In this document: in pieces, positions 41,921-46,674 of the stretch
How the letters are laid out: the number at the start of each line of letters is the position of its first letter
How positions within the stretch are numbered: position 1 is the stretch's first letter
From: Verrucomicrobiota bacterium
GTDB taxonomy: Bacteria > Verrucomicrobiota > Verrucomicrobiia > Limisphaerales > JACRJY01
Assembly (NCBI GenBank): GCA_016235585.1
Contig: JACRJY010000157.1
Span: forward strand, 1-64,000
Reading direction: 5' to 3'
Length of the DNA stretch: 64,000 nucleotides
Made by a program: the position numbers and the translations under genes
The notes under the pieces: model-generated
Databases searched by the model: none
Seen by the model: the letters and a program-made list of their open reading frames with translations, nothing else
Told to the model about the DNA's origin: nothing

Positions 41921-41950
41921 TTGACAGCTTGGCTTTGCAATGCAAAGTAT
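41921..41950 (+). promoter_or_regulatory. Promoter with 15-bp operator CTTTGCAATGCAAAG
   Basis: A consensus -35 TTGACA at 41921 and a -10-like AAGTAT at 41945, spaced 18. The perfect palindrome CTTTGCAATGCAAAG (41933-41947) fills the spacer, so a bound repressor would block polymerase. A nearly identical palindrome lies upstream of the next operon at 42932. The nearby winged-helix gene is the natural candidate regulator. Confidence 0.75.
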
Positions 41951-41955
41951 CCGTC

Positions 41956-42582
41956 ATGGACACCAACGCCGCCGCTGAAAACCTCCAGGTCATCCGCACG
42001 CTTATGGAACGCTCGGCGCTCTACCGCCGCGCGCTCGCGCCGGTGATGACTTTCGCCGGGGCGACCGGCCTCGTGGCGGCGGCGCTCGGCTGGCTGCTCA
42101 AGATCGGGCAGCCGCGCGCGTTCACGCTGTATTGGCTGGCCGTGAGCGTCGTCGCGCTGGCCGGGGTTTTTCTCATTTCGCGGCAGCAGGCGCTGAAAGA
42201 CAAAGAACCGTTCTGGTCGCCGCCCGCGCGGCGGGTGACGCAGGCGATTTTGCCGCCGCTGTTCCTTGGACTCATGGCGGCTTTGATGCTCGGCCTGCCG
42301 TCCGGAAACAGTCCGGTTCCCGCCTGGTGGCTGCCGCCGGGCTGGATGGCGCTCTACGGCTGCGCGCTGCACGCCGCCGGATTTTTCACCGCACGCGGGA
42401 TGCGCTGGCTCGGCTGGGCCTTCATTCTGGCTGGCAGCGCCTGTTTTTTCGCACTTGGACAATTGAGCATAGCCCCGTCACCTTTTCAGGCGCACGCGCT
42501 CATGGGCGGCGCTTTTGGCGGCCTGCACCTCGCGGCGGGACTTTACCTGTATGCCACCGAGCGAAATGGGAAAACGGCGTGA
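41956..42582 (+). CDS. Hypothetical six-helix membrane protein
   Basis: 208 residues from the ATG at 41956 (MDTNAAAENLQVIRTLMERSALYRRALAPVMTFAG). Six hydrophobic segments in three pairs, no signal peptide, no recognisable catalytic motif. First gene after the CTTTG operator and coupled by a GTGA overlap to the winged-helix regulator, so it is probably the target or partner of that regulator. Similar membrane-protein plus winged-helix pairs occur in other bacteria, but I cannot name the family. Confidence 0.75.
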   Translation: MDTNAAAENLQVIRTLMERSALYRRALAPVMTFAGATGLVAAALGWLLKIGQPRAFTLYWLAVSVVALAGVFLISRQQALKDKEPFWSPPARRVTQAILPPLFLGLMAALMLGLPSGNSPVPAWWLPPGWMALYGCALHAAGFFTARGMRWLGWAFILAGSACFFALGQLSIAPSPFQAHALMGGAFGGLHLAAGLYLYATERNGKTA

Positions 42583-42887
42583 ACCCCGAACCGTTCCTCA
42601 ACCTCGACCGGGTCATCCACGAGAAGGGGCGGCTGGCTATCATGTCGCTCCTCGCCGCGTCGGACGGGCTTTCTTTCACTGAAATGCGCGACACGCTTCA
42701 AATGACCGACGGCAACGTGACCGCCCATCTGCGGACCCTCCACGACGCCGGCTACGTGGCTTTCACCAAGTCGCTGGAGGGCGCGCGCCCGCTCACCACC
42801 TCCACGCTTACCGCCAAGGGTCGCAAGGCCTTCGCCGAATACGTTGACCTGCTGGATCAAATCGTCCGGCAGACGAAGGGAAAATAA
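42579..42887 (+). CDS. Small winged-helix transcriptional regulator (HTH_34-like)
   Basis: 102 residues from a GTG at 42579 that overlaps the previous stop. A single winged-helix domain: LDRVIHEKGRLAIMSLLAA, then LSFTEMRDTLQMTDGNVTAHLRTLHDAGYV (recognition helix region) and a C-terminal dimerisation helix. It has no ligand-binding domain. It most likely binds the CTTTG palindromes upstream of its own operon and the ispH operon. Confidence 0.88.
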   Translation: MNPEPFLNLDRVIHEKGRLAIMSLLAASDGLSFTEMRDTLQMTDGNVTAHLRTLHDAGYVAFTKSLEGARPLTTSTLTAKGRKAFAEYVDLLDQIVRQTKGK

Positions 42888-42920
42888 TATCTCCGAAAGT
42901 TTGAACGAATTGAAACCGCC

Positions 42921-42949
42921 TTGGTCTTTAGCTTTGTAATGCAAAGTGA
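42921..42949 (+). promoter_or_regulatory. Second copy of the operator, upstream of ispH operon
   Basis: CTTTGTAATGCAAAG (42932-42946), one base different from the first operator. It begins 11 bases after a TTGGTC that stands where the first site has its TTGACA. The first ispH codon is at 42979. Placement matches the first site within one base. Confidence 0.65.
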
Positions 42950-42978
42950 AAGAAACTGGCAACCCGCCAACTGACAGC

Positions 42979-43866
42979 ATGAAAATCCTTCGCGCCACCC
43001 ATCTCGGAATGTGCTTCGGCGTCCGCGACGCCATTGCGCTCGCCCGGCAGCAGGCCGCCGCCGGGCCGCTGACCATCCTCGGCGACCTCGTCCACAACGA
43101 AACCGTGCTCGCCGACCTGCGTTCGCGCGGCATCCGCATCGAGCGCGACGCGGCGGGCATCACCACGCCCACGGTGATGATCACCGCGCATGGTGCGTCG
43201 GACGCCGCCATGGCGCGGGTGCGGACGCGCGGCCTGAACGTCGTCGAGGCAACGTGCCCGCTCGTCCACTTCGCGCACCGCGAGCTGCGGCGGCTGGTGA
43301 AGGAGGGATTTCACCCCGTCATCATCGGCCAGCGCGACCATGTCGAGGTGCGCGGCATGACGGAGGATTTGGCGGAGTTCGACGTGGTGCTCACGCCGGT
43401 GGAGGTGGGGCAGTTGAGCGGGCGGCGGCGCTTCGGCGTCGTCGCCCAGACCACCCAGCCCATTACCCGTGTGCGCGAGCTGGTCACGCTCCTCCAGCGA
43501 CGCTTTCCCAATTCAGAAGTTCGCTTCGCCGACACGGTCTGCCAGCCGACCAAGCAGCGTCAGGCCGCCGCCGAGGAACTCGCGCGGCAGTGCGACGTGG
43601 TCGTCGTCATCGGGGGCGCGCACAGCAACAACACGCGCGAACTCGCCGCCACTTGCGCGCGTTTCTGCCCGCGCGTGCATCATGTGCATGGCGCGGCGGA
43701 TCTGCGCGGCGAGTGGTTCACCGGCGCGGAAACCGTCGGCCTCACCGCCGGCACGAGCACGCCGGACGCGGTGGTTGCGGGTGTGGAAGCTGCGCTCCGC
43801 CGCATCGCTGAATCTGAATTTCACCTGGATCCGCATACCATGGAATTGGCGTCACAAGCTGCCTGA
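42979..43866 (+). CDS. ispH: 4-hydroxy-3-methylbut-2-enyl diphosphate reductase (IspH/LytB)
   Basis: 295 residues, last step of the MEP isoprenoid pathway, 4Fe-4S enzyme. The three cluster cysteines are in GMCFGV, EATCPLV and DTVCQPTKQRQ. Pocket residues are present but in altered words: RDHVEVRG where the family has HPEV, QTTQPITRV where it has QTTLS, GGAHSNNTRE, and GLTAGTSTPD. The protein is thus a somewhat divergent IspH. It is the first gene of an operon of membrane proteins under the second CTTTG operator, an unusual context. Confidence 0.88.
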   Translation: MKILRATHLGMCFGVRDAIALARQQAAAGPLTILGDLVHNETVLADLRSRGIRIERDAAGITTPTVMITAHGASDAAMARVRTRGLNVVEATCPLVHFAHRELRRLVKEGFHPVIIGQRDHVEVRGMTEDLAEFDVVLTPVEVGQLSGRRRFGVVAQTTQPITRVRELVTLLQRRFPNSEVRFADTVCQPTKQRQAAAEELARQCDVVVVIGGAHSNNTRELAATCARFCPRVHHVHGAADLRGEWFTGAETVGLTAGTSTPDAVVAGVEAALRRIAESEFHLDPHTMELASQAA

Positions 43867-43883
43867 TTGACGCGACCTCACTC

Positions 43884-44612
43884 ATGAATACTGCCGTTCA
43901 AGTTACGCAAATCCCCGTCCTCCTGCGCGGTGAGACAAAGTCGGTCGTTGCTTGGATTCGCCAATGGGACTGGTCGCGCGTGCGCGCCTGGGTGGCCGTC
44001 ACGGTGCTGGGCGCGGCGCTCTTCGGCGCGGCCATCGGCTGGTGGCGCGCGCCGCTGCAGGCGTTCTACACGGCGGCCAAGTTTCCTCTCGTGCTCCTGC
44101 TCACCGCGCTCGGCAATGCCGTGCTCAACGCCATGCTTGCGCCGCTGCTGGGCGTGAACATGGGCCTGCGCCAGTCGCTGCTCGCGGTGCTGATGAGCTT
44201 CACCATCGCGGCGGCGATTCTCGGGGCGTTTGCCCCGCTCCAGTTCTTCGTCGCGTGGAATGTCCCTTCGTTCAACCTCGAACTGCGCTCGGCGTTTCTG
44301 GGCTACCGGTTCATGCAGTTTGCCACCGTGTCGTTCATCGCGTTTGCCGGCGTGATGGCGAACGTGCGGCTGCTGCCGCTGCTGCGCGCCCACGCGGAGA
44401 CGGACGCGGCGGCGCTGCGCGTCCTGTTTGCCTGGCTGGCGGGCAATCTTTTTCTGGGCAGTCAAATCTGCTGGGTGCTTCGCCCGTTTGTCGGCCTGCC
44501 GCAAGCCCCGGTTGAGTTTCTTGGGCCAGGTTTGTTTCAGGGCAGTTTTTACGAAGAGGTCTTTCAAGCCTTGCGTGCAGTGCTGCTCCAGCAGGCGGAG
44601 GTCGGATTGTGA
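43884..44612 (+). CDS. Membrane protein, first of a tandem paralogue set
   Basis: 242 residues, about six transmembrane helices. Begins MNTAVQVTQIPVLLRGETKSVV. It shares GWWRAPLQAFYTAAKFPLV, ALGNAVLNAMLAPLLGVN and LRQSLLAVLMSFTIAAAILGA with the next gene, and LRPFVG near the end. No signal peptide, no catalytic motif recognised. It follows ispH by 17 bases; its stop overlaps the next start (GTGA). Function unknown. Confidence 0.75.
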   Translation: MNTAVQVTQIPVLLRGETKSVVAWIRQWDWSRVRAWVAVTVLGAALFGAAIGWWRAPLQAFYTAAKFPLVLLLTALGNAVLNAMLAPLLGVNMGLRQSLLAVLMSFTIAAAILGAFAPLQFFVAWNVPSFNLELRSAFLGYRFMQFATVSFIAFAGVMANVRLLPLLRAHAETDAAALRVLFAWLAGNLFLGSQICWVLRPFVGLPQAPVEFLGPGLFQGSFYEEVFQALRAVLLQQAEVGL

Positions 44613-45319
44613 GCGTGGCAGTCACCGAACTGCGACAGGTTCCGGCGTTGCTTCGGGGCGAGGCGGAGTCCGCCGCAGTCTGGACGGAGACGTGCGATGC
44701 GCCCCGCGTGGCGATGTGGCTGGCAGTGACAATTGGCGGCTCGGCGGCTTTTGGCGCGGCGATGGGCTGGTGGCGCGCGCCGGAACAGGCACTTTACACA
44801 GCGGTGAAGTTTCCGCTGGTCATCCTGCTCACCGCGCTGGGCAATGCGGTGCTGAACGCCATGCTCGCACCGCTGCTGGGGGTAAACATCGGCCTGCGGC
44901 AGTCGCTGCTCGCCGTGCTGATGAGCTTCACCATCGCGGCGGCAATCCTCGGCGCGGCCAGCCCGCTGCTGGCCTTTGTCGTCTGGAATACACCGCCGCT
45001 GGCGGAGCGCGCGAGCGCCGGCGGGGCGCACGCCTTCCTGCTGCTGACCATCGTGGTCATCATCGCCTTCGCGGGCGTGGCGGCGAATCTGCGCCTCCTC
45101 CAAATGCTGCGCCGCCTCGGCGGCGGCGCGGGCGCGGCCCGGCGCGTGTTGTTCGCCTGGCTGGCGGGCAACCTGTTCCTCGGCAGCCAGCTTTCCTGGA
45201 TGCTGCGGCCGTTCATCGGCTCACCGGGGCTTTCCGTGCAGTTCCTCCGCGACGATCCGCTCAAGGGAAGTTTCTACGAGGCGGTTTTCCATGCCATCCG
45301 GCGGCTCTTTCTCGACTGA
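44609..45319 (+). CDS. Membrane protein, second tandem paralogue
   Basis: 236 residues from a GTG at 44609 overlapping the previous stop. Very similar to the preceding protein in its middle 100 residues (WWRAPEQALYTAVKFPLV, ALGNAVLNAMLAPLLGVN) and with LRPFIGSPG at the end. The N-termini (TELRQVPALLRGEAESAAVW) also match the first copy. The pair are a clear tandem duplication with later divergence. Confidence 0.75.
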   Translation: MSVAVTELRQVPALLRGEAESAAVWTETCDAPRVAMWLAVTIGGSAAFGAAMGWWRAPEQALYTAVKFPLVILLTALGNAVLNAMLAPLLGVNIGLRQSLLAVLMSFTIAAAILGAASPLLAFVVWNTPPLAERASAGGAHAFLLLTIVVIIAFAGVAANLRLLQMLRRLGGGAGAARRVLFAWLAGNLFLGSQLSWMLRPFIGSPGLSVQFLRDDPLKGSFYEAVFHAIRRLFLD

Positions 45320-45340
45320 ACCATCAACACAATAACAAAC

Positions 45341-46147
45341 ATGAGCGACATGAACAACACTCCACCTCTCCCGCCTCAACCCAGCAATTCCGAACCGGCT
45401 TCAACCCCCACGCCACCGCCCGCCGCGCCCGGCGCAGTGCCGCCGCTGTTTGGCGCGCCGGGAACCGATCCGGCGGATCGAGTTCCCATCACAAATATGT
45501 TTGGCGCCAGCGAAGCGTTGCTGCGCCATCCACGACGGATTTGGTTCCAACTCACGCAGTCCGGCCAGTTGCATCTGACGCTGGCGCTGCTCGGCATCGC
45601 CCTCGGCTGCGCGCTGGTCTACGGCTTTGTCGTGGGAACTTTTTCCGGGCAGGATCAACTTTGGGCCGCGCCGGTGAAGATTGCCGCCGGGCTGCTCATC
45701 TCCGGCCTCATCTGTCTGCCGAGCCTCTACATCTTCTCGTGCCTCGGCGGCGCGAACACCCGGCTGCTGGAAGTCTGCGGCCTCGTCGCCGGCCTGCTCG
45801 CGCTGCTGGCGGTGCTGCTCATCGGGTTTGCGCCAGTAGCGTGGATTTTCTCTCAAAGCACCGAGTCGGTCGCCGCCATGGGCGCGCTGCACCTGGCCTT
45901 TGCCGCCATTGCGACGGGTTTCGGCCTTAAGTTTCTCGCGCTCGGCTTTCGCGAACTCAACGCGCGGTTCAGTGGCGGCCTGCGCGTGTGGGCGGCCGTC
46001 TTCGTGCTCGTGCTCCTGCAAATGACCACGGCGCTCCGCCCGCTGATCGGCACCAGCGACTCGTTCCTGCCGTCCGAGAAGAAGTTCTTTCTCGCTCACT
46101 GGTTTGATACGCTGGACAAAGACAGCCGCACGGGAAACCCGCGCTGA
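45341..46147 (+). CDS. Membrane protein, third and most diverged paralogue
   Basis: 268 residues with a Pro/Ala-rich soluble N-terminus (PPPAAPGAVPPLFGAPG) and about six transmembrane helices. It keeps the plan of the two upstream genes: KIAAGLLISGLICLPSLYIFSCLGGAN where they have KFPLVLLLTALGNAVLNAML, and LRPLIGTSDSF where they have LRPFVG or LRPFIG. The family is recognisable only by alignment with the two copies upstream; function unknown. Confidence 0.72.
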   Translation: MSDMNNTPPLPPQPSNSEPASTPTPPPAAPGAVPPLFGAPGTDPADRVPITNMFGASEALLRHPRRIWFQLTQSGQLHLTLALLGIALGCALVYGFVVGTFSGQDQLWAAPVKIAAGLLISGLICLPSLYIFSCLGGANTRLLEVCGLVAGLLALLAVLLIGFAPVAWIFSQSTESVAAMGALHLAFAAIATGFGLKFLALGFRELNARFSGGLRVWAAVFVLVLLQMTTALRPLIGTSDSFLPSEKKFFLAHWFDTLDKDSRTGNPR

Positions 46148-46149
46148 CC

Positions 46150-46674
46150 ATGACTGACCGCGAACGCCAACTCCTCCTCCGCCTCCGCGCGTGGACGCTC
46201 CTGTTCATCCTCGGCCTCGTGTTGAGCGGCGCGACGGCGATTCCGCTGGAGACGGAACTCCACTGGCTCGTGAAATGGACAGGCGCGGAATCGTTGGTGA
46301 AATCGCCCGCATCCACGGACGCGCCGGGCTGGGCAGTGTGGCTCGTGCGCGTGCGCGACGCCTTGGTGGAAACCGGCGCGAAGCATCCGTTCCTCGCCTA
46401 CGGCTACGACTGGCTGGCGTTCGGGCATTTCGTCATCGCGCTGGCCTTCGTCGGTGCATGGCGCGACCCGGTGCGGAACATATGGCTGTTCGACTTCGGC
46501 CTCATGGCGTGCGCGCTGGTGATTCCATTCGCGCTCATTTTCGGCGGCGCACGCGGCATTCCGCTTTACTGGCGGTTGATTGACTGCTCGTTCGGCGTCA
46601 TCGGCGCAATCCCGTTGTGGTTGTGCCGGAGGTGGACGCTGGAATTGGAGAAGCTCGCCGTGTCCGCCAAATGA
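46150..46674 (+). CDS. Hypothetical membrane protein (174 residues)
   Basis: Starts two bases after the previous stop (MTDRERQLLLRLRAWTLLFILGLVLSG). Four or five transmembrane segments; WRDPVRNIWLFDFGLMACALVIPFALIFGGARGIPLYWRLIDCSFG in the middle. Not obviously a paralogue of the three genes before it. It ends the operon that begins with ispH. Confidence 0.72.
   Translation: MTDRERQLLLRLRAWTLLFILGLVLSGATAIPLETELHWLVKWTGAESLVKSPASTDAPGWAVWLVRVRDALVETGAKHPFLAYGYDWLAFGHFVIALAFVGAWRDPVRNIWLFDFGLMACALVIPFALIFGGARGIPLYWRLIDCSFGVIGAIPLWLCRRWTLELEKLAVSAK

Follow-up and report, generated by a model that had tools for sequence, protein, structure and literature searches.

A membrane protein and HTH_34 regulator pair with twin palindromic operators at a second ispH gene of a Verrucomicrobiota bacterium

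Introduction

In Bacillus subtilis, the small ArsR-like repressor SdpR controls its own operon and is captured at the membrane by the co-encoded membrane protein SdpI. The sdpRI operon encodes its own repressor together with an integral membrane protein (PMC6818787). Here, we analysed a locus of similar makeup in a Verrucomicrobiota bacterium of the order Limisphaerales (contig JACRJY010000157.1; the stretch of 64,000 nucleotides that was analysed is referred to as the window). Two consecutive operons on the + strand are each preceded by a palindrome of 15 bp. Operon 1 encodes a membrane protein and a winged-helix regulator, designated MemA and REG (local names), and operon 2, which extends to position 46674, encodes the isoprenoid enzyme IspH and four further membrane proteins. 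The initial annotation of the window had described this gene content and both palindromes correctly.

Compared to SdpR and SdpI, the locus differs in several respects: REG scores below the SdpR cut-off, MemA lacks an SdpI match, toxin genes are absent and the genes apparently under control belong to isoprenoid synthesis. The ArsR/SmtB metalloregulators share the winged-helix fold, the small size and the HTH_5 match with REG, whereas REG falls below their cut-off, contains no cysteine and is always co-encoded with a membrane protein. RmaH of Lactococcus lactis, a winged-helix regulator of the MarR family, acts directly on the mevalonate genes hmgA and mvk; unlike REG, it is a global regulator, is an activator on these genes and recognises a different, AT-rich motif, and a co-encoded membrane partner is not seen in the available text of that article (PMC13277315). 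Two IspH homologues per genome that are not interchangeable, LytB1 and LytB2, occur in Mycobacterium tuberculosis; the abstract of that report mentions neither a regulator nor a shared operator for them (PMC4550268), while the second IspH described here is tied to a regulator and an operator in nearly every genome. A winged-helix autorepressor with a membrane partner is already known as a kind, and the assignment of such a pair to the isoprenoid pathway, which genome comparison adds, appears well supported.

Dedicated transcriptional control of isoprenoid precursor supply is poorly known in bacteria; a recent review contains neither 'transcriptional regulat' nor 'repressor' as a term (PMC13001223). 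In the open-access literature we found no description of the motif, of HTH_34 (PF13601) in such a role or of such a regulator of isoprenoid genes, in line with the earlier annotation, whose author knew of no described system of this makeup. The module is compact, its operator is sharply defined, and it occurs with the methylerythritol phosphate (MEP) as well as the mevalonate pathway; which signal bacteria read to set isoprenoid supply can therefore be tested directly. The HTH_34 family and an unnamed membrane partner gain an operator and a candidate pathway, with regulon members predicted in many uncultured genomes. Because enzymes of the MEP pathway are targets for drugs and bioengineering, a native switch governing a spare IspH would also be of practical value.

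The palindromic operator

Operator 1 (CTTTGCAATGCAAAG, 41933..41947) is a perfect 7+1+7 palindrome, and operator 2 (CTTTGTAATGCAAAG, 42932..42946) deviates from symmetry by one mismatch. Both lie exactly 999 bp apart. Pattern searches, on which the genome-wide statements for this genome are based, yielded no other exact match in 4.6 Mb and a single match with one mismatch, located on another contig. Random occurrence throughout the genome, named beforehand as the result that would speak against the finding, was thereby checked and the outcome was in its favour. Within the window, five matches with up to two mismatches were found compared to 0.34 expected, a number reached by none of 100 shuffles.

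Nearly all matches to CTTTGYANTRCAAAG across 38 genomes of the order are located at the MemA-REG-ispH locus, and a reversed control pattern was present in only two of these genomes. Of the 29 REG-carrying genomes of the order, almost all have the motif CTTTG-N5-CAAAG at these two positions. Another 80 loci were taken from public genomes, most of them titled as Verrucomicrobia subdivision 3/Limisphaerales; a few of these loci duplicate genomes of the first set. With up to one mismatch, operator 1 was detected in 78 of 78 loci and operator 2 in 70 of 77. When all 1024 five-base half-sites with spacers of 0–10 were compared in about 140 related loci without a predefined motif, CTTTG-N5-CAAAG ranked first at site 1 (110/143 loci) as well as at site 2 (97/141).

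The columns flanking both sites are mostly near random, indicating that the conservation of the operators reflects selection and not mere relatedness. The bases that border the core on the left vary independently of those on the right (34 C..A pairs, 32 expected); this agrees with a DNA site bound by a symmetric dimer and not with an RNA stem. The motif is thus symmetric, fixed in position, specific to the locus and conserved at promoters, as a palindromic operator should be. Short inverted repeats are generally common, and chance, a dispersed repeat or an RNA hairpin were considered as sources of the palindromes. Dozens of genomes each have two exact copies in constant positions, which rules out chance and a genome-wide repeat, and the independence of the core-adjacent bases, C..A combinations included, together with the missing T-run after the palindrome, rules out a hairpin or attenuator. 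Given also the random flanks, we consider an origin other than an operator hardly credible.

Three further repeats were noted. At L073 4925-4939 (G007:C87:41924), TTGACA, a palindrome and, few bases on, a start codon precede a small membrane protein unrelated to MemA, which is the architecture of site 1. A pair of palindromes 24 bp apart lies before a lipoprotein-like, ankyrin-like gene at L070 5139-5177 (G030:C214); this genome is 78% complete and REG was not found in it. Tandem imperfect CTTTG..AAAG inverted repeats with TCAGGA occur upstream of operator 1 at L018 557-777 (G004:C204) and resemble a separate intergenic repeat array.

The regulator REG and the co-encoded membrane protein MemA

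REG (42579..42887, + strand) consists of 102 amino acids and its GTG start codon overlaps the end of the MemA gene by 4 nt. Residues 18-96 match PF13601 (HTH_34) with 85.9 bits (cut-off 27), covering positions 2-80 of the 80 profile positions, and a match to HTH_5 was also obtained. Scores for the ArsR/SmtB metalloregulator model NF033788 (33.3 bits) and the SdpR model NF033789 (18.4 bits) are below the respective cut-offs of 55 and 100. The sequence contains no cysteine, so a cysteine-based metal site is absent. The nearest solved sequences, PH1061 and Rv2887, were found with E-values near 5e-4 only; they resemble REG in the winged helix and are not orthologues.

Orthologues of REG are present in 29 of 38 genomes of the order, one per family, and in 49 of 279 genomes of the phylum. 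The motif accompanies them across the phylum and also in Aureimonas and Thermomicrobium, and REG is the only DNA-binding protein encoded in the module. These observations agree with the initial annotation, in which the 102-residue regulator was named as the likely binder, and make REG the likely, still putative, binder of the palindromes. The same annotation took repression for the simplest reading, which is consistent with the site geometry at both promoters and the ArsR/MarR-like fold.

MemA (41956..42582, + strand) has 208 amino acids and accompanies REG in all 80 public loci and in the plasmid pairs examined. The structural model (mean predicted local distance difference test score, pLDDT, of 91.6; 56 sequences) features six helices, the first of which is long. 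Conservation within MemA is highest in the N-terminal part of this helix (0.84, compared to 0.50-0.66 for the other helices); judged from the model, this part is a plausible docking point for REG. Neither Pfam nor NCBIfam gave an SdpI family match for MemA, and a fold search against the PDB returned nothing usable (best E-value 0.3). Being co-encoded throughout, MemA is the likely input to REG and is proposed to act as its sensor or tether.

A second ispH gene downstream of operator 2

The IspH (4-hydroxy-3-methylbut-2-enyl diphosphate reductase) encoded at 42979..43866 on the + strand matches TIGR00216 with 239.9 bits, above the equivalog cut-off of 187.85. The IspH copies at this locus retain the cluster cysteines C12, C93 and C188 as well as the catalytic residues H39, H71, H121, E123, T159, N218 and S260, with roles as in E. 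coli IspH. A longer paralogue is encoded elsewhere in the same genome (G000:C66:9052-10083), and an IspH with such a long reading frame (~415 codons or more) occurs in almost all genomes of the order. The short IspH was found only in genomes with REG. All nine genomes lacking REG have one IspH, and those with REG have two, except one incomplete genome with the locus copy only and two with extra fragments. Since the short form is tied to REG and the long form is near-universal, the ispH gene of the locus represents a second isozyme.

The initial annotation had proposed a comparison of gene order in other Verrucomicrobiota. In 27 of the order's 29 genomes with REG, the genes stand in the sequence MemA-REG-ispH, and operator 2 lies nearly always between REG and ispH. 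In the two exceptions (G010 and G035) ispH is located on another contig with the palindrome still upstream, and the relocated gene of G010 also retains the TTGAAC..GGTC element at a spacing about one base longer. The genes after ispH vary and include mem1, mem3, mem4, CreD, DUF1361 and an HpnJ/HpnR-related B12/radical-SAM protein, among others; CreD, DUF4153 and a diiron ferritin-like protein are among the operon genes of relatives. One genome features an unlinked second member of the regulon, in which an operator and the element TTTTGAAC..GGTC precede a ferritin-like gene (L072 5048-5062; G018:C106:21047). In other genomes, this type of ferritin-like protein belongs to the ispH operon.

Isoprenoid genes beyond the order

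Most of the 45 REG loci examined from the phylum carry the palindrome before MemA, after REG or at both places. Among genomes of the same class, ispH frequently comes next after REG, with the gene of the diiron protein behind it. Genomes of other classes frequently have, in this position, a gene for 3-hydroxy-3-methylglutaryl-CoA (HMG-CoA) synthase, which catalyses the first committed step of the mevalonate pathway; eight such loci were read, and in G052, G194 and G227 the gene adjoins REG by coordinates. The enzyme beside REG matches the equivalog TIGR01835. IspH is absent from all 11 genomes with a REG-adjacent HMG-CoA synthase, and HMG-CoA synthase was not found in IspH users, except for weak matches in G201 and G266. 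In one locus, a DAGK_prokar kinase adjoins REG. Outside the phylum, an Aureimonas plasmid (Alphaproteobacteria) carries a membrane protein, REG, ACTTTGCAATGCAAAGC and uppS in this sequence, the 15-mer being identical, and in Thermomicrobium ACTTTGTATAACAAAGT precedes the membrane protein-REG pair, which is followed by an ABC transporter.

The link to isoprenoids occurs in at least three settings, namely ispH, HMG-CoA synthase and uppS. It can be regarded as well supported because the same module stands at one or the other of these genes in different lineages. The link itself was anticipated earlier; its grading as speculation was too cautious. The emphasis on a membrane-protein regulon is not upheld, as the four downstream membrane proteins are variable cargo, and by genome comparison the constant core is MemA, REG, the operators and an isoprenoid gene.

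A diverged LytB/IspH-like protein is encoded beside REG in L237 (G281), L232 (G253) and L240 (G292) and elsewhere in the genome in G216 and G289. It scores 89-100 bits against PF02401 (usually ~240), and the protein of L237 lacks the IspH cysteine motifs; it may be a non-catalytic relative of IspH that was retained under the same operator. The subdivision 3 locus also occurs in public records (L113, L117, L148, L170 and L182) whose titles name Methylacidimicrobium, Akkermansia muciniphila, Acidobacteria or Klebsiella pneumoniae; these metagenome bins are probably mistitled.

Promoters

A -35-like TTGACA (41921..41926, + strand) precedes operator 1, which lies between it and the start codon of the MemA/REG operon. 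A TTGAC-like block 12 nt before the palindrome is kept in 26 loci of the order and is weaker in 96 loci; outside the order, it is absent as a block. The MemA start codon follows operator 1 after 7-9 nt in 75 of 77 loci. Of the promoter proposed earlier, the TTGACA part was borne out; AAGTAT is weak as a -10 element, and a scan for the sigma-70 consensus gave no match at promoter 1. If this weak -10 element overlaps the right arm of the palindrome, the transcript would start at or next to the MemA start codon.

At site 2, the conserved block is TTTGAAC-N16-GGTC (42900..42926, + strand), with its end about 5 nt ahead of the palindrome; the columns around it lack conservation. GAAC-N17-GTC at exactly this spacing is present in the window and in 57 of the order's 89 loci; the next commonest spacing occurs in 7 loci. 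An AAC motif at -35 and a GTC motif at -10 in fixed spacing are the geometry of promoters recognised by extracytoplasmic function (ECF) sigma factors. Promoter 2 in the order therefore looks ECF-type and would presumably need such a factor. TTGGTC, taken as the -35 element in the initial annotation, was probably misread and is replaced by the conserved block. A repressor at operator 2 would cover the expected start site of operon 2. Outside the MemA-REG-ispH locus, the pattern occurs near the control frequency, and a wider ECF regulon is not claimed.

Proposed mechanism and alternative explanations

We propose that MemA and REG form an autoregulated pair of membrane protein and repressor that sets isoprenoid precursor supply via two operators, and assign a probability of about 0.62 to this reading. 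A REG dimer would bind the ACTTTG-N5-CAAAGT palindromes. At operator 1, it would cover the stretch from the -35 element to the start codon of the MemA/REG operon and, at operator 2, the transcription start of the ECF-type promoter that drives the second IspH and the membrane proteins. MemA would meet a membrane-related cue, most likely the isoprenoid or polyprenyl lipid status, a signal suggested by the target genes. REG would then leave the DNA, perhaps held at the membrane by the conserved N-terminal helix of MemA. Derepression of ispH could provide more capacity for isopentenyl and dimethylallyl diphosphate, and that of memA-reg would reset the switch.

Several observations weigh against this proposal. 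A recognisable operator 2 is missing from 7 of 77 public loci. Roughly one third of the order's loci lack the ECF-like element, which is not seen as a block outside the order. In about 7 of 18 mevalonate users, the HMG-CoA synthase gene is located at another site. Several MemA/REG pairs, including other plasmid-borne ones, have no isoprenoid neighbour, indicating that the pair is wider than its isoprenoid role, which may be lineage-specific. The poor -10 element of promoter 1 also leaves room for an activator. With operator 1 sitting between the -35 and -10 elements and no sigma-70 consensus match, bound REG could reshape this promoter in the manner of MerR and switch the operons on. However, operator 2 follows the conserved promoter element and overlies the expected start, a position from which activators rarely work, and HTH_34/ArsR-like proteins are mostly repressors, which makes activation improbable.

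The nature of the signal allows further explanations. The module could be a switch for envelope or oxidative stress, with ispH as cargo, since IspH is an oxygen-sensitive [4Fe-4S] enzyme in need of a spare, and isoprenoid status would then not be sensed. The ECF-type promoter at operon 2 and the pattern of a spare IspH isozyme are in accordance with this explanation, as is the presence in the operons of the diiron ferritin-like protein and of membrane proteins, CreD and DUF4153 among them. HMG-CoA synthase, however, contains no Fe-S cluster and, in most mevalonate users, is not itself a spare, and uppS encodes a prenyl transferase; the recurrence of both genes fits isoprenoid supply better than oxygen damage, and we regard the stress switch as rather unlikely. 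MemA, in turn, could be mere regulated cargo, e.g. a transporter, exerting no control over REG, which would sense a soluble ligand or repress itself constitutively. Many small winged-helix repressors bind small ligands, no fold relative hints at a sensor function of MemA, and its contact with REG is inferred. On the other hand, 102 residues leave REG no space for a separate ligand domain, MemA is constantly paired with REG, and its best conserved part is the cytoplasm-facing N-terminal helix. A cargo role for MemA is accordingly possible but doubtful.

As a tentative generalisation, which we hold to be possible rather than probable, MemA/HTH_34 pairs may be widespread membrane-coupled feedback sensors of isoprenoid or polyprenyl status, with the operator ACTTTG-N5-CAAAGT kept across phyla and each lineage's own isoprenoid gene (ispH, HMG-CoA synthase, uppS, possibly lipid kinases) beneath it. 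If true, this feedback-sensor logic would be a bacterial counterpart of eukaryotic sterol feedback control.

Downstream membrane proteins

The four membrane protein genes downstream of ispH are located on the + strand. Mem1 (43884..44612, 242 aa) and its paralogue mem2 (44609..45319) share 61% identity; queried together, they recur in 35 of 146 related loci. Mem3 (45341..46147, 268 aa) likewise recurs in 35 of these loci and mem4 (46150..46674, 174 aa) in 13. The membrane proteins of the window operons have no family match in Pfam or NCBIfam, and a PDB fold search with the mem1 model (pLDDT 85.6) gave no usable match (best E-value 0.25). A further + strand membrane protein of 285 aa without family (P0008, 46774-47631) begins 99 nt past operon 2. 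It was rejected as an additional gene of this operon in view of the 99-nt gap, and the comparison with relatives did not return it together with the module. Mem3 stands directly after REG in some genomes from other classes.

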